Below, piece after piece: positions 43,270-55,584 of a stretch of DNA of 56,095 bases (positions are counted from its first letter, which is position 1; every line of letters begins with the position of its first letter). The notes beneath the pieces were generated by a model. That model did not search any database and was not told the origin of the DNA. It worked only from the letters and a program-made list of their open reading frames with translations. Position numbers and translations under genes: made by a program. Origin of the DNA: an uncultured Alphaproteobacteria bacterium (GTDB lineage: Bacteria; Pseudomonadota; Alphaproteobacteria; UBA7985); NCBI GenBank assembly GCA_905479265.1, contig CAJQLX010000005.1:1-56095 (forward strand). Direction: 5' to 3'.

Positions 43270-45555
43270 CTAGGACGCCGCCCGAATTTGCCGCCACAGC
43301 CGATCCGGTGTCGCCGGCATATCAACAAAGCCAACATCCAACGGGTCAAGCGCGCGCTGAATCGCATTCATCACCGCTGCACACGCGCCAACCGTACCCG
43401 CTTCACCGCAGCCCTTGATGCCCATCTCATTGTTCAGCGATTTCACGCCCATGTGGGTGAAATCAATGTCCGAAATCGTGTCAGCCCGCGGCACCGTGTA
43501 GTCCATGAAAGATCCCGTCAGCAGCTGACCGGTCTCATCATAAACCGTGCGTTCCATCAGCGCCTGGCCCAATCCCTGAACAATCCCGCCGTGGACTTGA
43601 CCCTGCACCACCAGCGGGTTGTACAGCAGTCCAAAATCATCCACGACCACGTAGTTTTCCAGCGTCACAACACCGGTTTCTTCGTCCACTTCGACTTCAG
43701 CGATGTGACAGCCGTTGGGGAAGGTCGATGTATAGTCATCGTGTCCCGCTTCCACGTCCAGCGTGCCTTGCGGCAACCCGCCCGCGAGCGTTTTCAGATC
43801 CAAGCTGATGTCGGTTCCCGAAACGCGGAAGGCTCCATCGTCAAAGCTCAGGTCTTCCGGCGCACATTCGAGCTTCTCAGCCGCATGATCCTGCGCCTTT
43901 TCGATCAGCGCCCGCGCCGCCGCGCGCATGGCAATCGCCTGCGCGATCAAGGACCGTGAGCCGCCCGTGCCGCCACCATTCTTGATCCGGTCCGTATCGC
44001 CTTGAACGATGACAATATCCTCAATCGGCACACCGGTTTGTTCGTGAACAACTTGCGCGTAAACCGTCTCGTGACCTTGGCCGTTGGATTGCGTCCCAAC
44101 GGTCACTTCCAGCTGGCCCGTTGGGTTAAAGGTGAAGGTCGAATCCTCATGCGGCGCACCCAAAGTACACTCGACATAGTAGCACAGCCCCATATCCCGG
44201 CGCAGACCCTTGGCCGCCGACGCCGCTTGGCGCTTTGCCAAGCCATCATAGTCAGCCTTCACCAGCGCCGCACGCATGAGCTTTTCAAATTCACCCACGT
44301 CGTACGTCAGGCCCACAGCGGTTTTGTATGGCATTTGCTCCGGTCTGATGAAGTTTAGCGAGCGGAACTCGATCGGATCCATCCCAACGTGCTTCGCCGC
44401 CACGTCCATCAAGCGTTCAAGCAGATAAATCCCCTCCGGTCGCCCCGCACCGCGATAGGCGTCAATCTGGGTGGAGTTGGTGAAGACGCCGTCCACGCGA
44501 AAGCGCGAGGCTGGAATATCATAGACGCCGGGCAGGATTTTTTCCTGCAGCATCGTCGGGATCCCTTGCGCAAATTGCGAGAAGTACGCCCCCATGCCGG
44601 CATAGGAGTGGATGTCGATGCCCGTAATCCGGTGATCCTTGTCCAAGGCCAGTTTGGCGTTGGAAATGTGATCCCGACCCATGTTGTCGGACAGCATGGA
44701 TTCCCCGCGTCCGGCCAGCCACTTGACTGGCCGACCCAGCTGGATCGCCGCAAACGGCGCAAGATATTGCTCGGGGTAGGTGAAGGCTTTCATCCCAAAA
44801 CCGCCGCCAACGTCCGGTGTCACCACGCGCACGTTTTCTTTTTCCAGCCCCAAACACGCCGACAAGCGGTCCTTCAGAGCCCAGCCACCTTGCGTGCTGG
44901 TGATGACGGTCAGCTTGTCGCCGTCCATATGCGCAACAGCAGCCCGCGGCTCCATCGCCACCACAATCACGCGGTTGTTTTCAAGCCGCATCTCAACGAC
45001 CGTTTCGGCTTCGGACAGGATTTGCTCCATTTGCGCGTCATCGCCTTGACCGCGCCAGCGAAAGGCGATGTTGCCCGGCGCATCGTCATGGACCAGCGGC
45101 GCATCGGGCGCGATGGCGGATTCGATGTCGGTTACGGCATCTAGGATGTCGTAGTCCACGTCGATCAGTTCTGAGGCTTCTTCGGCCTGTGCTTGTGTCT
45201 CGGCAACAATGATCGCCACCGGCTCCCCAGCAAACCGAACCCGACCATCGGCCAAAATCGTCCGGTCGGGCTTGGCGCTTTCTTGGCCAACGATGGCATA
45301 GGGCATTTTATTCGCGCCACCAGCGGCAACGAAGTCAGCGCCGGTATAAACGCCCAGAACGCCGTCTGCGTCTTTGACGTCATCGGTGTTGATGGACTTG
45401 ATGATTGCGTGGGCAAAGGGTGAACGAACCACCACCATATAAACTTGGCCGTCGATGTTCACATCATCGGTGTATTGGCCCTGTCCGGTAACAAAACGCT
45501 CATCTTCCAATCGACGCACAGAAGCGCCTGTTGAGAATTTCTCAACAATACCCAT
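43270..45555 (-). CDS. Form II carbon-monoxide-dehydrogenase-like large subunit (CoxL family)
   Basis: The 761-residue protein is a molybdopterin subunit of the xanthine-oxidase family, with GGGFGMK (250-256), the molybdenum-site stretches GTQSNGQGHETVYAQ and GGTGGSRSLI, and GCGEAGTVGA with the catalytic glutamate. The active-site loop is AYRGAGR (366-372), the form II signature; proven CO-oxidising form I enzymes have AYRCSFR. It may therefore act on another aldehyde or heterocyclic substrate. ATG at 45555 follows GGGAG. It is divergent from the Cox accessory genes. No CoxS or CoxM is adjacent. Confidence 0.93.
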   Translation of the reverse strand: MGIVEKFSTGASVRRLEDERFVTGQGQYTDDVNIDGQVYMVVVRSPFAHAIIKSINTDDVKDADGVLGVYTGADFVAAGGANKMPYAIVGQESAKPDRTILADGRVRFAGEPVAIIVAETQAQAEEASELIDVDYDILDAVTDIESAIAPDAPLVHDDAPGNIAFRWRGQGDDAQMEQILSEAETVVEMRLENNRVIVVAMEPRAAVAHMDGDKLTVITSTQGGWALKDRLSACLGLEKENVRVVTPDVGGGFGMKAFTYPEQYLAPFAAIQLGRPVKWLAGRGESMLSDNMGRDHISNAKLALDKDHRITGIDIHSYAGMGAYFSQFAQGIPTMLQEKILPGVYDIPASRFRVDGVFTNSTQIDAYRGAGRPEGIYLLERLMDVAAKHVGMDPIEFRSLNFIRPEQMPYKTAVGLTYDVGEFEKLMRAALVKADYDGLAKRQAASAAKGLRRDMGLCYYVECTLGAPHEDSTFTFNPTGQLEVTVGTQSNGQGHETVYAQVVHEQTGVPIEDIVIVQGDTDRIKNGGGTGGSRSLIAQAIAMRAAARALIEKAQDHAAEKLECAPEDLSFDDGAFRVSGTDISLDLKTLAGGLPQGTLDVEAGHDDYTSTFPNGCHIAEVEVDEETGVVTLENYVVVDDFGLLYNPLVVQGQVHGGIVQGLGQALMERTVYDETGQLLTGSFMDYTVPRADTISDIDFTHMGVKSLNNEMGIKGCGEAGTVGACAAVMNAIQRALDPLDVGFVDMPATPDRLWRQIRAAS

Positions 45556-45719
45556 CACAATTCTCCCAAAAATCACTGGCCCTCGTTGAGAGCCGTGCCT
45601 ATTTTCATAGCTGAACATAGGGTACTAGGCAGTGCGGCACAGGGTCCAGCGTCTATGTAGGGATACAGAGCCTCTCTTATTCACATGTGCCAATTAATCG
45701 CCTTTGGGAAGGAAACAGC

Positions 45720-46214
45720 ATGGAAATGACCGGATCGTCACGATTGAAAGCAGACCGGGACACGGTTTGGGCCGCGCTCAATAACCCCGAGGTGCTGCAA
45801 GCTTGCATTCCCGGTTGTGAGAGTTTCGAGTCCACCGGCGAGAACGCGTTTGCCGCCGAAGTTGGCGCGAAAATCGGACCGGTCAAAGCCAAGTTCAAAG
45901 GCAATGTGGAATTGGTCGATATCGTTCCTTCTGAATCCTACCGCTTGGTCGGCGAAGGCACAGGCGGTGCTGCTGGCTTTGCTAAGGGTGGCGCCACCGT
46001 GCATCTGACGGACATCGACGGCGGCACCGAACTCGCTTACGAGGTCAGCGCCAACATGGGCGGAAAAATCGCTCAATTGGGCGCACGGTTGATGACCAAC
46101 ACGGCCAAGAAGTACGCGGACAAGTTCTTTGACGCTTTTGCCGAACAAGTCGGCGGTAAGCTCGATGATGAAGACGACACCGCCGCTGACGGTGAAGGCG
46201 AGAACGCAGCATGA
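45720..46214 (+). CDS. coxG: CoxG-family SRPBCC protein
   Basis: The 164-residue product has the CoxG pattern: VWAALNNPEVLQACIPGCES near the N-terminus, KFKGNVELVD and VSANMGGKIAQLGARL. The fold binds hydrophobic ligands; in CO dehydrogenase it is linked to membrane association. It ends with an acidic tail. GGGAAGGAAACAGC precedes the ATG. It is the first gene of the accessory operon, divergent from coxL by 164 bp. Confidence 0.92.
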   Translation: MEMTGSSRLKADRDTVWAALNNPEVLQACIPGCESFESTGENAFAAEVGAKIGPVKAKFKGNVELVDIVPSESYRLVGEGTGGAAGFAKGGATVHLTDIDGGTELAYEVSANMGGKIAQLGARLMTNTAKKYADKFFDAFAEQVGGKLDDEDDTAADGEGENAA

Positions 46215-46260
46215 TGCCGCTGCTCACCCGGCGCGAGCCTTGCGGACGGGGCGTCGATCT

Positions 46261-47220
46261 GTGAGCAACGCCCCGCACCCGAACCCGGAACCGAACCCGC
46301 ACTCGGAACCAAACCCGGCCGCCTTTTCGGGCGATGTCTTTCCCTCCGTCCCCGCCGCGCAAAGCGCGCTGGCCGATACCGGCTACATCGCCAACACTGA
46401 GCTTGCGACGGCCATCCACCTCGCCATGAAACTCACCCGGCCTCTGTTTTTGGAGGGCGAGGCGGGAACCGGTAAAACGGCCATTGCCCAGGCGTTGGCA
46501 CAGGCGCTCGACCTGCCGCTTGTGCGGTTGCAGTGTTACGAGGGCTTGGACCAGGCCGCCGCGCTCTATGATTGGAACGTTGCCGCGCAGTTGCTGGAGC
46601 TCAAGCGCGACACCGGCGCGGATTTGTACGACGAGCGGTTCTTGCTCGCTCGTCCCCTGCTGCAGGCTCTGCGGCACCCAAGCGGGAAGCGTGCAGTGTT
46701 GCTGATCGACGAGATCGACCGCGCCGATGCCGCGTTTGAAGCGTTCCTGTTGGAGCTTTTGTCAGACTGGCAAATCACCGTGCCGGAGCTGGGAACGATC
46801 GAAGCCACTCAGCCGCCAATCACCATTTTGACCGCCAACGGCACCCGTGAAATCCACGACGCGCTCAAGCGCCGCTGCTTCTATGCCTACGTCGAGTTTC
46901 CCTCGCGAACCTTGGAATTGGACATCCTGCGGACCCGACTGCCACAGGTGCCCGCGCAGCTATCCGGCCAAGTCGTCGATTTCGTCCAAGCGCTGCGGAA
47001 CGAAGGCGTCTTCAAAGCTCCCGGCGTGGCTGAAACGCTCGATTGGGCCCGGGCACTCGTCGCCCTTGATGCCGCGGTTCTCGATCCCACAATCGTTGAT
47101 GCCACCCTTGGCGCTGTCTTGAAGTATCAGGACGATCTAGCCGCCATTCGGGGCGAGCGGGCGCGGGCCATTCTGAACGACCTCAGCGGGCTGCAGCGCG
47201 ATGCGCAAGTGTTGTTCTAG
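46261..47220 (+). CDS. coxD: MoxR-family AAA+ ATPase (CoxD-like)
   Basis: The 319-residue product has Walker A GEAGTGKT (66-73), Walker B LLIDEIDRAD (147-156), and the MoxR block ITILTANGTREIHDALKRRC. CoxD proteins help insert sulfur and copper in CO dehydrogenase, with a VWA partner, here the next gene. The start is GTG at 46261; the first 20 residues are a Pro/Asn/Glu repeat (PNPEPNP). A longer frame upstream overlaps coxG and is not used. Confidence 0.9.
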   Translation: MSNAPHPNPEPNPHSEPNPAAFSGDVFPSVPAAQSALADTGYIANTELATAIHLAMKLTRPLFLEGEAGTGKTAIAQALAQALDLPLVRLQCYEGLDQAAALYDWNVAAQLLELKRDTGADLYDERFLLARPLLQALRHPSGKRAVLLIDEIDRADAAFEAFLLELLSDWQITVPELGTIEATQPPITILTANGTREIHDALKRRCFYAYVEFPSRTLELDILRTRLPQVPAQLSGQVVDFVQALRNEGVFKAPGVAETLDWARALVALDAAVLDPTIVDATLGAVLKYQDDLAAIRGERARAILNDLSGLQRDAQVLF

Positions 47221-47238
47221 TCCGGGACGCGGTGGATC

Positions 47239-48405
47239 GTGACCTCTGATACCACCAACGTCAAAGCCGGTCACCTTGCTGACAATATCGCCGGGTTCGC
47301 CGATTTGCTGCGTCGGTCAGGCATGGCTTTGGGCTTTGACAGCGCTGGTTTGGCGGCGGAAGCACTGGCAACGGTGGATATGACCGACCGGCGTCAAGCC
47401 AAGGCGGCGCTGAGTGCGGCTTTGGTTAAAAACCGTCGAGATCGCGCGCTGTTCAGCGCTGCCTTTGCCCTGTTTTGGCGTGAGCCAACGAGCGGTTTCA
47501 CCGCCGAGGCGGACGACAGCGACCACGCACCCGACGTCCCCGAACGCGAAGATTTGCCAAAAGCGCTTGAGGACGCCTTGCGGGCCAATCAGCCGCAAAC
47601 CGACGTTGGCCAAACCGTGGAGGTCCAACACCAAGCAACCCACGCGACCAAGACCGAACGCTTGCAGACCCTCGATTTTGCCGCCATGTCAGCGGAAGAA
47701 ACGGCCCAAGCAGAAGCCCTGATCCGGCGCTTCGCCACGTCGCTCAAGCCCCGCCCCACGCGGCGGTTCAAGCGCGCAAGTGCGGGCCGCATCGATCTTT
47801 CCGCGAGCCTAAAGAGCATGCCGCGCACAGCGGGCGAGCTGCAGCGTCTTTATCGGCGGCAGCGTCAGCGGCGGCCGGATCCCTTGGTGATTATTGCCGA
47901 CGTATCGGGGTCGATGGACGCCTACACGCGCCCGGCGCTGATTTTCGCACACGCTTTGGCACAGCGCCTGGAAAGCCCAGTGGAGACCTTTGTTTTCGCC
48001 ACGCGCCTCACGTCAATCACCCGTGACCTGCGCCGCAAAGACCCAGACAAAGCCATGAAATCCGCCATTGACCGGGTGACGGACTGGTCTGGTGGGACGC
48101 GGTTGGGGGAAATCCTTGCCGCGTTCAACCGCCGCCATCTGCGCCGCGTTTTGTCCAGCGGCGGGACGTGTTTGCTCATCACCGATGGCTTGGAGCGGGG
48201 CGACACCAGCCTGTTAGCCTCTGAAGCCCACCGGCTTTCCCGGTTTTCGCGTCTGTGGTGGCTTAACCCCTTGATGCGGTTTGACCAATACGCGCCCTCT
48301 GCACGCGGCGCTGCTATTTTGGAACGTTGCGCAGAGCGTCGCGTGTCTGTTCATTCTCTCGACTCTCTGGCGGCAATAGGTGAAGCTCTCACCGAGCTTC
48401 GATAG
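47239..48405 (+). CDS. coxE: CoxE-like VWA-domain protein
   Basis: The 388-residue product has a C-terminal VWA domain with the metal site IIADVSGSMDAYTRP and SGGTRLGEILAAFN, and an N-terminal helical domain. CoxE partners with the MoxR ATPase in CO-dehydrogenase maturation; MoxR and VWA genes are typically adjacent, as here. The start is GTG at 47239, 18 bp after coxD. The VWA domain type matches CoxE (COG3552-like). Confidence 0.9.
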   Translation: MTSDTTNVKAGHLADNIAGFADLLRRSGMALGFDSAGLAAEALATVDMTDRRQAKAALSAALVKNRRDRALFSAAFALFWREPTSGFTAEADDSDHAPDVPEREDLPKALEDALRANQPQTDVGQTVEVQHQATHATKTERLQTLDFAAMSAEETAQAEALIRRFATSLKPRPTRRFKRASAGRIDLSASLKSMPRTAGELQRLYRRQRQRRPDPLVIIADVSGSMDAYTRPALIFAHALAQRLESPVETFVFATRLTSITRDLRRKDPDKAMKSAIDRVTDWSGGTRLGEILAAFNRRHLRRVLSSGGTCLLITDGLERGDTSLLASEAHRLSRFSRLWWLNPLMRFDQYAPSARGAAILERCAERRVSVHSLDSLAAIGEALTELR

Positions 48406-48490
48406 CGCGACCCACCCATTTCACCCACCAAATCCATCCACCGAAACCAATCACCGAATCAACCTGAAAATCGGCCAAAGGCACAATCGA

Positions 48491-49393
48491 ATGAGTGAAA
48501 ATCTCGACGTTCTGGAAGCGCTCAAACAGTGGGAAATTGACGGCAAAAACGCGGTCTTGGCGACTGTTGTCTCCGCTTGGGGCTCCGCGCCGCGTCGTCC
48601 GGGTTCGCAAATGGCCATCCGCGAAGATGGGCACATCGTGGGCAGCGTGTCGGGTGGCTGTGTCGAAGGCGATGTGATTGCCCAAGCGCTGGAAATCATG
48701 GACCGCGACGGCTCCGACCCCGCCGCCGTGGTGCGGCAGGCGGATTACGGGGTCAGCGACGCGAGTGCTTGGGCCGTGGGTTTGGCCTGTGGTGGGAAAA
48801 TCAGGGTACATTTGCACCAACCAGCCCCCGGTTTCGCCGCCCAAACCCTGCGCACCATGGCCGACACGGGCATCGCTGAAGTGGCGCTGGACGTCGGTGA
48901 GGCCGAAGCCGTCCAAGTCACCTACGCCGCGCCCTTGCGCTTGTTGATTCTGGGCGGTGTCCACATTGCTCAAGCGTTGGTCGCACTGGCCCCAACGGTG
49001 GGATTAAGCCCGACCATCATTGATCCACGCGGTGGCTTTGCCAGTCCTGAGCGCTTCCCCGGTATTCCGCTGGTGACACAATGGCCCGACGAGGCTGTTG
49101 CGGCCTTTGGCATCGACGCCCGAACCGCCGTGGTCGCCCTGACCCATGACGAAAAACTCGACGACCCCGCCTTAATCGCAGCCTTTGCGTCCAAGGCGTT
49201 CTACATCGGCGCGCTAGGCTCACGACGGACTCAGAGCCAGCGGCGCGAGCGCATGTTGAACGCAGGGATCCGTGACGCGGACTATCACCGGCTCTATGGC
49301 CCCATCGGTCTGGACATCGGTGCTGCCAATCCGCCGGAAATTGCGCTGGCCATCCTCGCCCAGATTATCGCAGCGCTGCGGGGTAAGGCGTGA
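48491..49393 (+). CDS. XdhC/CoxI-family maturation protein
   Basis: XdhC-family proteins bind molybdenum cofactor and help sulfurate and insert it into xanthine-dehydrogenase-type enzymes. The 300-residue product carries both parts: an N-terminal domain (APRRPGSQMAIREDGHIVGS, GSVSGGCVEGDVI) and a C-terminal Rossmann domain (LLILGGVHIAQALVAL, FYIGALGSRRT). The ATG at 48491 starts this domain; the upstream frame has no family sequence. It overlaps the mocA start by 4 nt. Confidence 0.93.
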   Translation: MSENLDVLEALKQWEIDGKNAVLATVVSAWGSAPRRPGSQMAIREDGHIVGSVSGGCVEGDVIAQALEIMDRDGSDPAAVVRQADYGVSDASAWAVGLACGGKIRVHLHQPAPGFAAQTLRTMADTGIAEVALDVGEAEAVQVTYAAPLRLLILGGVHIAQALVALAPTVGLSPTIIDPRGGFASPERFPGIPLVTQWPDEAVAAFGIDARTAVVALTHDEKLDDPALIAAFASKAFYIGALGSRRTQSQRRERMLNAGIRDADYHRLYGPIGLDIGAANPPEIALAILAQIIAALRGKA

Positions 49394-49968
49394 GCCTGAC
49401 GACATTGGTACTCGCAGCCGGGCAGGGCCGTCGCTTTGGCGCAAAATCCAAGCTGTTGGCGTCTTTGGGCGGACGAGCGGTTTTGGGGCACGTTTTTGAC
49501 CGGTTGGCCGAGGCGGGCTTGAAAACCGGCTTTGTGGCTTTGCCTGATGATAGTCGATTTTCGGCACTAAAAGCCCTTGTGCCCGCCGATTTTACTGCCG
49601 TTGAGATCGACCAAGGGACGGTGGGAATGGGCCGAAGTTTGTCCGCGATTGCGCAAAAAGTGCCCGCTGGCAACGCGGTCTTGCTGGTTTTGGGGGACCA
49701 GCCGCTGTTGACGCGCACGGCGCTCCACGCCCTGATCGCCCACCAATCCGGCACCCGCATTGCGCGCTTGACCCACGCAGGAACAGCCGGGCATCCCGTG
49801 CTGTTTCCTGCGCGCCTGGTCGGTGAGCTAACAGCCCTGACCGGGGACCAAGGCCCACGGCATTTGATCAAGCAATACGGCTACGAGCCGGTGGAGGTCG
49901 ACGACCCGATGGTTCTGTGCGACGTCGATACCCCCGAAGCCCTTGAACGTTTGCAGGCCTATGCTTGA
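49390..49968 (+). CDS. mocA: MocA-like molybdenum cofactor cytidylyltransferase
   Basis: The 192-residue product is a MobA-like nucleotidyltransferase with the loop LAAGQGRRFGAKSKLL at the N-terminus, VLLVLGDQPLL, and the stretch GTAGHPVLFPARL. It likely makes molybdopterin cytosine dinucleotide, the cofactor form used by CoxL-type enzymes. The start GTG overlaps the previous stop as GTGA, so translation is coupled. The next gene overlaps its end by 8 nt. Confidence 0.88.
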   Translation: MSLTTLVLAAGQGRRFGAKSKLLASLGGRAVLGHVFDRLAEAGLKTGFVALPDDSRFSALKALVPADFTAVEIDQGTVGMGRSLSAIAQKVPAGNAVLLVLGDQPLLTRTALHALIAHQSGTRIARLTHAGTAGHPVLFPARLVGELTALTGDQGPRHLIKQYGYEPVEVDDPMVLCDVDTPEALERLQAYA

Positions 49969-50837: not shown

Positions 50838-51545
50838 TTGAGCTCACAAGACGACACCGGCAAGCCTTGGGTTTTCCCCTTGGATGCGGACCCCGAAACA
50901 ATGGAAGATTTAGACGGGATCAATCGCTTCCCCAAGGAAATCCCCATCAAGCCCGGCTTCCGCCCGTTTCGCTTTATCGGCGTTTGGGGCATGAAGTTCA
51001 TGGGGTGGCGAGCCGTGGGAACATTGCCAGAGCGTCAGAAGTTCATGGTGATCCTGATTCCCCACACCTCAAGCGTGGATTTCCTGCTCGCCATTTGGAT
51101 CTTCCTGATGTTCCGCGTGGACATGCGGTACATGATCAAAGCCGAGGTCTTTAAGTTCGGGTTTGGTCGGTTCCTGCGGTGGACTGGGGCCATTCCGATT
51201 GTGCGGAAGAAATCGCACGGGCACGTTGACGCCGCGATCGAGGCCTTCCGCGCCGCCGGCGACCGCGTCATTCTGGGCATCGCGCCCGAAGGCACTCGAT
51301 CCCCCACGCCCACGCTCAAAAAAGGCTTTTACCACATCGCCAAGGGGGCCGATGTTCCGATCCTGTTGGTGACCATGCACTACGATAAAAAGCTCGTACA
51401 GTTTGGCCCCACCATCCGTTCTGATCGTCCGTGGGAAGAGGTCGAAGCCGACCTTGAAGTCTTCGCTGGAAACGTCTCTGGGCGCGAGCGGGGGTATCTT
51501 GATCGGGTGGAAAAAGGCTGGATTCATCTGCGCAAGAAGCCCTAA
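50838..51545 (+). CDS. PlsC-like acyltransferase
   Basis: The 235-residue product has the acyltransferase motifs HTSSVD (the HxxxxD site) and APEGTRSP, with an adjacent hydrophobic stretch DFLLAIWIFLMFR. These enzymes acylate lysophospholipids or related acceptors at the inner membrane. I use TTG at 50838, well spaced after GGAGGAGGG; ATG at 50820 is an alternative that would add six residues. A terminator follows. Confidence 0.85.
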   Translation: MSSQDDTGKPWVFPLDADPETMEDLDGINRFPKEIPIKPGFRPFRFIGVWGMKFMGWRAVGTLPERQKFMVILIPHTSSVDFLLAIWIFLMFRVDMRYMIKAEVFKFGFGRFLRWTGAIPIVRKKSHGHVDAAIEAFRAAGDRVILGIAPEGTRSPTPTLKKGFYHIAKGADVPILLVTMHYDKKLVQFGPTIRSDRPWEEVEADLEVFAGNVSGRERGYLDRVEKGWIHLRKKP

Positions 51546-51591
51546 TCGTGGTCAGAGGCGCTTGACGCTGGCGACAAGCTCACTAGGTTCG

Positions 51592-51626
51592 AACAGGCGC
51601 TGGATAGACCGGCGCCTGTTTTTTTG
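51592..51626 (+). terminator. Intrinsic terminator after the PlsC-like gene
   Basis: AACAGGCGC and GCGCCTGTT are perfect 9-bp inverted repeats around the loop TGGATAGACCG, followed by a T-run. The nadM-type gene begins 26 bp after it. Confidence 0.9.
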
Positions 51627-51651
51627 TGCCTGCAAGGAGCTTGTTGGGCTT

Positions 51652-52758
51652 ATGTCGATTGATCGAACTGGCGCTGGGTTCAGCGCTGATGTTGCTGTTT
51701 TTATTTTGCGGGCTCAGCCGTTTCATTTCGGCCATCGCGCCGTGATTGAACAAGCCTTAGCGCAGGCGAAACACGTCCTGCTGCTGCTTGGCTCATCCCA
51801 CCAACCCCGCTCGCCCCGTAACCCCTTCACGCACGAAGAGCGCGCCGCCATGATCCGCGCCAGCTTCAGCGCAGACGGTAACGCGCGCATCGAAATCGTG
51901 CCCCTGATGGACGTTCTCTATAACGATCCCGCGTGGATCACGAACATCCGCGTGGCCGTTGAGCGTGAAACCCGGCGGCTTGAGCCGGGCAACGGCAACC
52001 CATCGATTGCGCTCGTGGGGCATTCCAAGGACGAGAGCTCGTATTACCTGCGATTGTTCCCCGAGTGGCACAGCATCGATTGCGATAACTACCGCGGCAT
52101 CAACGCCACCGACTTGCGGCGTGCGATCTTTGACGCTGGCGGGGATATTTCCGACGATGAGTCCGCCGTCGTGCAGTATTTGCGATCGGTCACAACCGAC
52201 GCGGTGATCGAGCTGCTTCGCGGGTTGATGGTCAAGCGCGACGTTGTCGAGGTGGTCGAAGAAGACCGCTTTATTCAGAATTACAAGAAAGGCTGGGAAA
52301 ACTCGCCCTATCCGCCGACGTTCGTGACGGTTTCTGCGGTGGTTGTGCAGTCTGGTCACGTGTTGCTGGTCAAGCGCAAGACCCGCCCCGGCTTGGGGCA
52401 AATGGCCTTACCCGGCGGCTTTCTGCGCAGTGACGAGAGCCTAGAAGACGGTGCCATTCGCGAGCTGAAAGAAGACACCCGCCTGAAGGTTCCCGAACCG
52501 GTCCTGCGCGGATCCATCCGGGAAACCAAGGTGTTCGACTATCCAAAACGCTCCGCCCGAGGCCGCACCATTGCCCACGCGCATCTCATCCAACTGCGGG
52601 ATGACACGTCGCTGCCAAAGGTTCGCAGCGGTGATGAAGTGCCACAGGCCATGTGGGTGCCGTTCAACCAAATCGACCCCGAGCGCATGTTCGAAGACCA
52701 CTATCACATCATCCGATCGTTGATTGGGACGGCGTTCCGCGTGGAAATGGGGGGCTAA
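51652..52758 (+). CDS. nadM: Bifunctional NMN adenylyltransferase / Nudix hydrolase
   Basis: The 368-residue protein joins an N-terminal nucleotidylyltransferase (about 1-180, with QPFHFGH as a variant of the usual QPFHxGH and LVGHSKDESSYYLRLFPEW) to a C-terminal Nudix domain (about 215-340) whose box reads GGFLRSDESLEDGAIRELKED. The family makes NAD+ from NMN and ATP and can hydrolyse ADP-ribose, as known from the cyanobacterial and Francisella proteins. The Nudix box has Thr where a Gly is usual near its end. A terminator precedes it. Confidence 0.9.
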   Translation: MSIDRTGAGFSADVAVFILRAQPFHFGHRAVIEQALAQAKHVLLLLGSSHQPRSPRNPFTHEERAAMIRASFSADGNARIEIVPLMDVLYNDPAWITNIRVAVERETRRLEPGNGNPSIALVGHSKDESSYYLRLFPEWHSIDCDNYRGINATDLRRAIFDAGGDISDDESAVVQYLRSVTTDAVIELLRGLMVKRDVVEVVEEDRFIQNYKKGWENSPYPPTFVTVSAVVVQSGHVLLVKRKTRPGLGQMALPGGFLRSDESLEDGAIRELKEDTRLKVPEPVLRGSIRETKVFDYPKRSARGRTIAHAHLIQLRDDTSLPKVRSGDEVPQAMWVPFNQIDPERMFEDHYHIIRSLIGTAFRVEMGG

Positions 52759-52895: not shown

Positions 52896-53330
52896 ATGGG
52901 AACGACTAGAGATCTGATGGCCCTGCTAGATTTGACTGTCGAAAGCTCAATCGAAGAGCTGCAAGCGATTGCGAACCAGGTTGATGGCGTTGCAGAACAG
53001 CAGGGCTGGTCGCAGAAGACCGTCTTTGCCTTGCAAGTTGCCCTCGATGAATGGATCAGCAACGTCATCAAATACTCCTATAAGGAGCGTTCGGATCAGC
53101 CGATCCGTGTGGTCGTCAATGAAAACGAAGATGAACTGATCGCGTCCGTTGAAGACCTCGGCACCCCATTCGATCCCTCGTCCTCCGCCGTCCCCGCGAC
53201 CCTCGATGATACCTTGTCAGGAAAGCGCGAAGGGGGCATGGGCCTGTTTGTTATGCATCACCTGTTGAGCGATATTGCTTTCGAACGGGTGAATAACCGG
53301 AATATAGTAACGTTGCGAGTAAAGCTTTGA
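52896..53330 (+). CDS. rsbW: RsbW-type anti-sigma-factor serine kinase
   Basis: The 144-residue GHKL ATPase has the N-box DEWISNVIKYSY (Asn56), ASVEDLGTPFD (G1-like box, Asp87) and EGGMGLF (glycine-rich lid). RsbW proteins bind a sigma factor and phosphorylate an RsbV-type antagonist. The partner STAS gene is next, but no sigma factor or PP2C phosphatase is seen. ATG at 52917 is an alternative start. The 137-bp gap upstream contains an inverted repeat GGGTGA/TCACCC at 52799-52820. Confidence 0.9.
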   Translation: MGTTRDLMALLDLTVESSIEELQAIANQVDGVAEQQGWSQKTVFALQVALDEWISNVIKYSYKERSDQPIRVVVNENEDELIASVEDLGTPFDPSSSAVPATLDDTLSGKREGGMGLFVMHHLLSDIAFERVNNRNIVTLRVKL

Positions 53331-53417
53331 GCGGCCCCGCGACGCTTGGGCGAGCCCCGATGGCTCTGCCTTCCACTCCGATGCAGTTAACAGCTGCTGG
53401 AACCATTGGATAGAACC

Positions 53418-53750
53418 ATGGAACTGCTAGAAGCCATTCAGGACGGCGTGACCGTCATTTCGCCAAAGGGCAACATCAACCGCGCCACCAGCCCAGAGCT
53501 GCAAGGGCGTCTTTCGCCGTTGGTCGAAGAAGGCAAAGACGTGGTCGTTGACCTGTCAGAGGCCGCAACGGTGTCCTCTGCCGGATTGCGAGTCATGTTC
53601 ATTATTGCGAAAGCAGCGGGCGAAAAGGGCAAATTTGTCCTCGCATCACCGAATGAAATGGTCGCTGACATCCTGAACGTTACGGGATTTGCGAGCTTGA
53701 TCACCGTCAAAGACGACGTGGAATCCGCTATTTCCTTCATAAATTCCTAG
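53418..53750 (+). CDS. rsbV: RsbV-type STAS anti-anti-sigma factor
   Basis: The 110-residue STAS-domain product has the conserved core VVVDLSEAATVSSAGLRVM, with the phosphoacceptor serine at 53 or 54. Unphosphorylated, such proteins bind the RsbW kinase and release the sigma factor. I place the start at the ATG at 53418; TTG at 53406 is weaker. It follows rsbW by 87 bp, the reverse of the common rsbV-rsbW order. A hairpin lies after the stop. Confidence 0.9.
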   Translation: MELLEAIQDGVTVISPKGNINRATSPELQGRLSPLVEEGKDVVVDLSEAATVSSAGLRVMFIIAKAAGEKGKFVLASPNEMVADILNVTGFASLITVKDDVESAISFINS

Positions 53751-53798: not shown

Positions 53799-53832
53799 AG
53801 GGTCTGCCTACAAAACGGCACACCTTTTGTAA

Positions 53833-53912: not shown

Positions 53913-54956
53913 ATGTCCGCTGAAACCACCAAACGCGTCGCGCGCGTGCTGTCCATCTCGGGGGATGGCGCACGAACCGCTATTGCGGCGCATGTCTTGG
54001 CTGAATTAGAGCGCCGAACGGGGCAACCCGTGCATAAGCTGTTTCACATGATCGTGGGGGAGGGCGCGGGCGCTGTCTTGGCCATGTTGCTCGCCCTGCG
54101 CAGTGTCGGCGGGCGGGTGCTGCCCTTGGGCGCCGAAGCCGCGGCGATCGCCATCGAAGAAAGCCTGCCAGCCTTTCAGCCGCCGTCATCGGGATGGTCG
54201 TCCTTTGGCGCACGCATGATGGGACGAGCGCCCCAATCCAAGCCGCTGGGGACATCCCCGCTGACCGGCGAAGACGGGCTGCTCGGCGGTGCGGATTTGT
54301 CATCGGCGCTGACTGATTTGGCCGTACCCGTCTTTGACACCGCAAACGTCCGTCCGTTCCTGTTCCGCAGTTGGAAGGCGCAGGGGATGTACTTGCGCGA
54401 TGGCGAAGGATCGGGCCGGTTCGAGTTCCGAGGCAGCGACATTGCCGCCGCCGCACTCCGCCACCCGCTGAACCGCCGGGAAAACCCCAGTATCCAAGCC
54501 CGCAGCCGCGCCGAGTTCCGCTTGTGCGGCGGCGGTGCCCTCGCGCCCGACCCGGTGAGCCTTGCCGCCCTGCAAGCGCGCCAGCTGTATCGCCGCGCCA
54601 ATGTCATCCAGACGATCTCGCTGTCGTTCAGTGGCCGAAGCCAGAAAGAGAGCGTGGATTGGGCCGAAGCAGGCCACCGGGTGTTGAGCCAGATCACTGC
54701 TAAGGGCATAGCTGAGCAGGTGCTGACCCTGTCTTTGCCCGTAGACCAAAGCGCAACCTTTGTCCCGCCGCACTTGATGCAGCGTCAGATGCGGCTGTTG
54801 GCGCAAGGGTTTCTCGAGGACCAAGAAACCAATGGATTCAGTGCCTTGGTTCAGGAATACACCGCCACCCGCGCGGTGCCGCACACGGCCCTGCGCACCC
54901 CCCAAACGGTGCGCACCGCGCCAAGCGGTGGGTTTTCAGCCCTTTTGGCGACTTGA
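53913..54956 (+). CDS. Patatin-like protein with substituted catalytic residues
   Basis: The 347-residue product aligns with the N-terminus of patatin-type phospholipases: SISGDGART (14-22) at the oxyanion loop and MIVGEGAGAV (46-55) where GxSxG is expected. The nucleophile Ser is Gly51. The Asp-Gly-Gly site reads CGGGALAPDP (206-215), so the catalytic Asp is absent. The middle block VPVFDTANVRPFLFRSWKA resembles patatin. The protein is therefore probably not a lipase, though a relocated active site cannot be excluded. It follows rsbW and rsbV and has a structured leader. Confidence 0.78.
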   Translation: MSAETTKRVARVLSISGDGARTAIAAHVLAELERRTGQPVHKLFHMIVGEGAGAVLAMLLALRSVGGRVLPLGAEAAAIAIEESLPAFQPPSSGWSSFGARMMGRAPQSKPLGTSPLTGEDGLLGGADLSSALTDLAVPVFDTANVRPFLFRSWKAQGMYLRDGEGSGRFEFRGSDIAAAALRHPLNRRENPSIQARSRAEFRLCGGGALAPDPVSLAALQARQLYRRANVIQTISLSFSGRSQKESVDWAEAGHRVLSQITAKGIAEQVLTLSLPVDQSATFVPPHLMQRQMRLLAQGFLEDQETNGFSALVQEYTATRAVPHTALRTPQTVRTAPSGGFSALLAT

Positions 54957-54965
54957 TTTGACTAC

Positions 54966-54979
54966 GGTATTATAATACC
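54966..54979. promoter_or_regulatory. 14-bp perfect palindrome upstream of rplM
   Basis: GGTATTATAATACC is a perfect palindrome beginning 9 bp after the patatin-like stop and containing TATAAT at its centre. A matching -35 at standard spacing is not evident, so an operator or a promoter element is equally possible. Confidence 0.4.
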
Positions 54980-55122: not shown

Positions 55123-55584
55123 ATGATTAAGTCGTTCACTGCAACGCCCAAAGACATCAAGAAGGAATGGATCCTGATTGATGCTGAAGACGTGGTATTG
55201 GGCCGTTTGGCCTCGCGTGTCGCGAACCTTCTTCGCGGCAAGCACAAGGCGACCTACACGCCGCACATGGATTGCGGCGACAACGTCGTCATTATCAACG
55301 CCGAGAAGGTTCGTTTGACCGGTAACAAGCGTCAGACCAAGACCTACTACTGGCACACCGGCCACCCGGGCGGGATCAAGGAGCGTAAGGCGCACCAGAT
55401 CCTCGACGGTGACTACCCAGAGCGCGTTCTGACCAAGGCCATCGAGCGGATGATCCCGCGCGGTCCGCTGGGTCGTCAGCAGATGAAGAATCTGCGCGTT
55501 TACGCTGGCTCTGAGCACAAGCAAGAAGCTCAGAACCCACGGGTTTACGATTTCGCGTCTGAGAACGCGAAGAACACCCGCTAG
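55123..55584 (+). CDS. rplM: 50S ribosomal protein L13
   Basis: The 153-residue product matches L13, with [37 protein letters not shown] and [17 protein letters not shown]. It binds 23S rRNA early in large-subunit assembly. It is followed after 17 bp by rpsI, the standard order. The patatin-like gene lies upstream and is not part of this operon in the usual arrangement. Confidence 0.98.

Follow-up and report, generated by a model that had tools for sequence, protein, structure and literature searches.

A conserved patatin-fold protein without catalytic residues as a candidate pseudoenzyme in an alphaproteobacterial genus

Results

A patatin-fold protein stripped of its catalytic residues

Near the end of the window (the whole stretch of 56,095 nucleotides that was analysed) lies a gene for a 347-aa protein with a predicted patatin fold that lacks the nucleophile, the catalytic Asp and the oxyanion loop, and all 6 genomes of its genus carry the gene with these same losses. 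We put at roughly two in three the probability that this pseudo-patatin is a pseudoenzyme, which selection maintains not for hydrolysis but for what would be ligand binding or scaffolding. The features discussed are listed in Table 1.

Table 1. Features of the pseudo-patatin locus and its relatives, in window coordinates unless a contig is named.
Feature	Position	Strand	Basis or distribution
RsbW-like HATPase_c_2 kinase, upstream neighbour	52896..53330	+	adjacency genus-specific
RsbV-like STAS protein, upstream neighbour	53406..53750	+	adjacency genus-specific
CGGCAYRMCWTTTGTA, 16-bp sigma-54-like element (GG-N10-GT), candidate own promoter	53816..53831	+	once per genome
Pseudo-patatin gene, 347 aa	53913..54956	+	ATG-to-stop ORF, uninterrupted
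Asp18 codon, former oxyanion loop	53964..53966	+	Gly in 47/47 canonical relatives
Glu50 codon, immediately before nucleophile position	54060..54062	+	Thr/Ser in 46/47 canonical relatives, Glu in 0/47
Gly51 codon, nucleophile-Ser position	54063..54065	+	alignment with canonical homologues
His184 codon, former TSAAP loop	54462..54464	+	Ala in 45/47 canonical relatives, His in 0/47
Gly206 codon, catalytic-Asp position of DGG	54528..54530	+	alignment with canonical homologues
rplM (L13), conserved downstream neighbour	55123..55584	+	synteny
Tandem canonical and degenerate patatins of G006, between parC and rplM	L035:10218-12358		

Profile searches place the protein near patatins, with a weak Pfam match to PF01734 (E 0.0057; 17.3 bits, below the curated cut-off of 27.7 bits), an NCBIfam CBASS_lipase match over residues 11–69 (E 8.6e-10; 38.3 bits, short of the equivalog score of 200), a CapE match (E 2.3e-5) and a PADLOC phospholipase effector profile that covers residues 7–263 (E 3e-14). 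The AlphaFold2 model (pLDDT 80.9, pTM 0.82) superposes on patatin-17 (4pkb; Z 26.7, 286 residues aligned, rmsd 3.1) and on CapE and CapV structures (Z ~24), with Foldseek matches down to E 5.9e-13, and because of these superpositions the protein is predicted to have the patatin (PNPLA) alpha/beta fold for which PF01734 stands as fold family. A first-pass annotation, made from the sequence alone, had already called it patatin-type and proposed structure prediction as a check; profiles and model both bear this out.

Aligned with canonical homologues, the protein has Gly51 in place of the nucleophile Ser (within G49-E50-G51-A52-G53) and Gly206 in place of the catalytic Asp (within G206-G207-G208), just as the first-pass annotation had read the two motifs. 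That annotation also had the protein aligning with patatins at the oxyanion loop, which is where we depart from it: the loop itself is broken across the genus (DGGGxRG becoming S/A-G-D-G/P-x-x-T/V), reading S-G-D-G-A-R-T (SGDGART) in the studied protein and S/A-G-D-P-A-x-V (e.g., SGDPATV) in the sister lineage. Thus the GxSxG Ser, the DG[GA] Asp and the GGGxxG oxyanion loop of catalytic patatins are missing from six of six genus genomes. Since both nucleophile and base are missing and the oxyanion loop carries an acid, classical Ser-Asp hydrolysis is impossible for this protein, the change from Gly18 to Asp placing a negative charge at the very site where the oxyanion is to be stabilised.

The former active-site positions are fixed in the genus rather than drifting, since D18, E50, G51, H184 and G206 are all invariant within it. 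Three of these residues (Asp18, Glu50 and His184) occur in 0 of 47 canonical relatives, and their motif positions lead us to infer that they share one site. Elsewhere the family motifs SLGTG, Y111 and D283 are eroded as well, F188 partly so, and the catalytic motifs hold no new invariant Ser or Cys.

Conservation and selection within the genus

Relatives were recovered by an alignment query of genome contigs, a single-protein query of the same kind of contigs having given no match. The relatives are recorded as metagenome-assembled genomes of marine origin, under the labels Geminicoccus sp., Rhodospirillaceae bacterium and Kiloniella sp. Within the genus the gene is intact in G001–G004 and divided between two contigs in G005, with identities to the studied protein of 73% (G001), 70% (G003) and 47–49% (G002 and G004), and the open frame is kept among genus copies down to 44–49% identity. 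All six copies read GEGAG or GEGTG and have Gly at the catalytic-Asp position, so that the check proposed in the first pass, whether Gly51 and the GGG site persist in close relatives, came out with both glycines in every genome.

Estimates of dN/dS, which are approximate because dS is near saturation, fall at 0.17–0.18 (NG86) and 0.12–0.18 (YN00) for those pairs that could be computed, several pairwise values not being computable. For the canonical paralogue in the same genomes they are 0.03–0.10, so the pseudo-patatin values are about twice as high, and they also exceed those of neighbour genes. Across five genus sequences, 121 of 347 positions are invariant. Because all 6 genus genomes share the changes with open frames, and because dN/dS is about 0.12–0.18, the gene is under purifying selection, that is, kept. 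Sequencing error or chance was rejected on the recurrence of the same state in 6 genomes, and a pseudogene on the intact frames and dN/dS <1.

We surveyed 58 non-redundant homologues for the two catalytic residues and found both Ser and Asp in 47. The other 11 are the 6 genus copies, 3 copies from family f3, copy 2 of G006 and L081, such that outside the pseudo-patatin group of this order both residues are kept in 47 of 48 homologues, L081 being the exception. This last homologue (L081:739-1812, minus strand, genome G122) belongs to another alphaproteobacterial family and carries Ala for Ser and Asn for Asp; its double loss arose independently.

Intermediate states and origin in the order

The order shows intermediate states at a linked locus, with Ser lost and Asp kept in f3 and a canonical plus a degenerate copy in tandem in G006. 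The f3 copies (G007, G009, G010) read GTGTG or GSGTG, retain the Asp and have the loop DAGGVRG, whereas the degenerate copy of G006 (f2) reads ATSAS, DGAGLKA and DAT; its canonical partner, copy 1, sits at the linked parC-rplM locus. Gene order is NMNAT-Nudix, rsbW, rsbV, pseudo-patatin, rplM, rpsI in the genus; parC, canonical patatin, degenerate patatin, thioesterase-like ORF, rplM, rpsI, argC in G006; and parC, patatin in f3, where parC, argC and the thioesterase were identified by reading their sequences and not by profile search. As G006 bridges both arrangements, all are argued to descend from one locus.

A 57-row tree unites f1, f3 and G006 copy 2 (support 80/92) and has a long branch leading into the genus clade. 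For a smaller set with the active-site columns removed, p-AU was 0.38 for one clade including G006 copy 2 and 0.25 for f1 and f3 alone. Without the motif columns, then, descent of all pseudo-patatins in the order from one origin is neither supported nor rejected and synteny alone argues for it, and the order may have seen one loss of Ser or several.

Flanking elements

Each of the 6 genus genomes has exactly one copy of the element CGGCAYRMCWTTTGTA, ~81 nt ahead of the pseudo-patatin start codon, and a search across the order found it in no other genome. It has the GG-N10 spacing of sigma-54 promoters, but GT replaces the -12 GC, and the genome encodes RpoN; together this suggests that the pseudo-patatin gene has its own promoter here. 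A perfect inverted repeat (TACAAAA-N9-TTTTGTA, 53809-53831) overlaps the element in G000, G001 and G003.

Just past the pseudo-patatin stop, at 54966-54979, is a perfect palindrome, GGTATTATAATACC, present as a single copy in each of four genus genomes; with the TATAAT that it includes, it may serve the rplM promoter as -10 region. Farther upstream, a fused cytidylyltransferase-like (NMNAT-type) and Nudix protein is encoded at 51403-52758, directly before rsbW, and the region 43270-49968 holds genes for a molybdopterin-binding dehydrogenase large subunit, CoxG, a MoxR-type AAA protein, CoxE, XdhC and a MobA-like protein, a CO-dehydrogenase-type maturation cluster.

Discussion

What the protein might do

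We interpret the pseudo-patatin as follows. A canonical patatin between parC and rplM in this order would be its most likely ancestor; the line leading to the genus would then have lost the nucleophile, the catalytic Asp and the oxyanion loop, and the former active-site pocket would have been rebuilt as Asp18, Glu50 and His184 became fixed. The rebuilt pocket probably binds a ligand (lipid head group, nucleotide or metal) or a protein partner without cleavage. What we infer, beyond the predicted fold and the observed losses, conservation, purifying selection and synteny, is non-catalysis, the binding role and the ligand. That a dead patatin may still bind and assemble has a precedent in AbCapV S58A, a patatin without nucleophile that was solved as a filament with 3'3'-cGAMP bound (PDB 9kej, entry title).

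A bolder version, somewhat unlikely in our estimate, is that Asp18, Glu50 and His184 form a new acidic/His site, used either for binding a metal or ligand or for some other chemistry, in a protein encoded at a conserved housekeeping-like locus. The protein would then be a natural bacterial counterpart to plant pPLAIII that has gone beyond them in giving up the oxyanion loop as well.

The first-pass annotation had proposed a conserved inactive patatin, of which the conserved part holds (both residues are lost, in six of six genomes and under purifying selection), whereas inactivity does not follow from the two swaps by themselves, since plant pPLAIII patatins, which have a GxGxG esterase box and in some members GGG for DGG, reportedly remain active acyl hydrolases (PMC4623698; for GxGxG also PMC4204433). 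For this reason alternative catalysis has to be weighed: the protein could still be an active acyl hydrolase of a non-canonical type, which is what has been claimed of pPLAIII, with a different nucleophile or a general-base mechanism that employs Asp18, Glu50 and His184. The equal motif state of a plant family reported to be active and three new ionisable residues fixed at former active-site positions speak for it, but the oxyanion loop, unlike that of pPLAIII, is lost and bears an acid, the catalytic motifs have gained no invariant Ser or Cys, and SLGTG, Y111, D283 and partly F188 are eroded, so we consider such activity unlikely.

Distinctly doubtful, too, is a part for the protein as effector or regulator in RsbW/RsbV partner switching, controlled by or reporting to the kinase and the STAS protein, a regulatory role at which the first-pass annotation had hinted from gene position. 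The order rsbW-rsbV-pseudo-patatin is indeed kept across the genus, and the STAS protein retains a Ser in its phospho-acceptor region (SSAGL). Yet the pair adjoins the patatin gene in the genus only, f2 and f3 relatives being without it there and the order's relatives having the patatin gene beside parC instead; the 162-nt gap contains the conserved promoter-like element; and rsbW looks disrupted in G002 (two in-frame stops, L030:8721-9183) and G005 (frame disruption, L033:1397-1882), metagenome assemblies in which errors in these frames are possible, while both keep the pseudo-patatin gene. Because of the genus-only adjacency and these disruptions the positional argument is weak; co-occurrence with intact rsbW and rsbV is not conserved, and an RsbWV operon partner was rejected on the same two grounds.

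That the gene is a decaying patatin remnant heading for loss is scarcely credible, for although the genus clade has a long basal branch and dN/dS is raised over paralogue and neighbours, the frame is intact wherever a contig spans the gene, dN/dS is well below 1 and 121 positions are invariant.

Comparison with known patatins

The nearest solved bacterial structures (9iom-9ioq, 9kh6, 8zr9) and the nearest profiles are those of the CBASS effectors CapV and CapE, from which the pseudo-patatin differs in being without catalytic residues and in its housekeeping-like locus beside rplM. A SMODS domain search found no SMODS-type CD-NTase partner in 11 genomes of the order, and none adjacent to the gene. 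A role in CBASS or another defence system was rejected on this result and on the chromosomal locus beside ribosomal-protein genes. The AbCapV S58A precedent, for its part, is engineered and carries one mutation, its remaining motifs being unaltered. Canonical alphaproteobacterial patatins (G006 copy 1, L062, L063) share the family, the FxSWKA(Q/R)G segment and the C-terminal tail with the pseudo-patatin, but retain DGGGIRG, GTSTG and DGG.

A literature search for bacterial pseudo-patatins returned nothing relevant. Most of what is documented on naturally Ser- and Asp-less patatins concerns plant pPLAIII, and the activity reported for these is a puzzle. Here a single order holds intact, Ser-lost and Ser-, Asp- and oxyanion-loop-lost states, with the independent L081 loss elsewhere, and this graded series offers small proteins for testing both GxGxG patatin catalysis and what a dead patatin does.

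The first-pass statement that known patatins keep Ser and Asp is contradicted by plant pPLAIII (PMC4623698), and since these share both swaps, the pseudo-patatin is an unusual variant and not an unprecedented one. The two have in common the patatin fold and the replacement of both Ser and Asp by Gly (here GEGAG and GGG), evidently by convergence between different kingdoms, and they part at the anion-binding loop, which pPLAIII retain as DGGGx(xx)G (PMC4623698) and which is lost here (SGDGART / SGDPATV).
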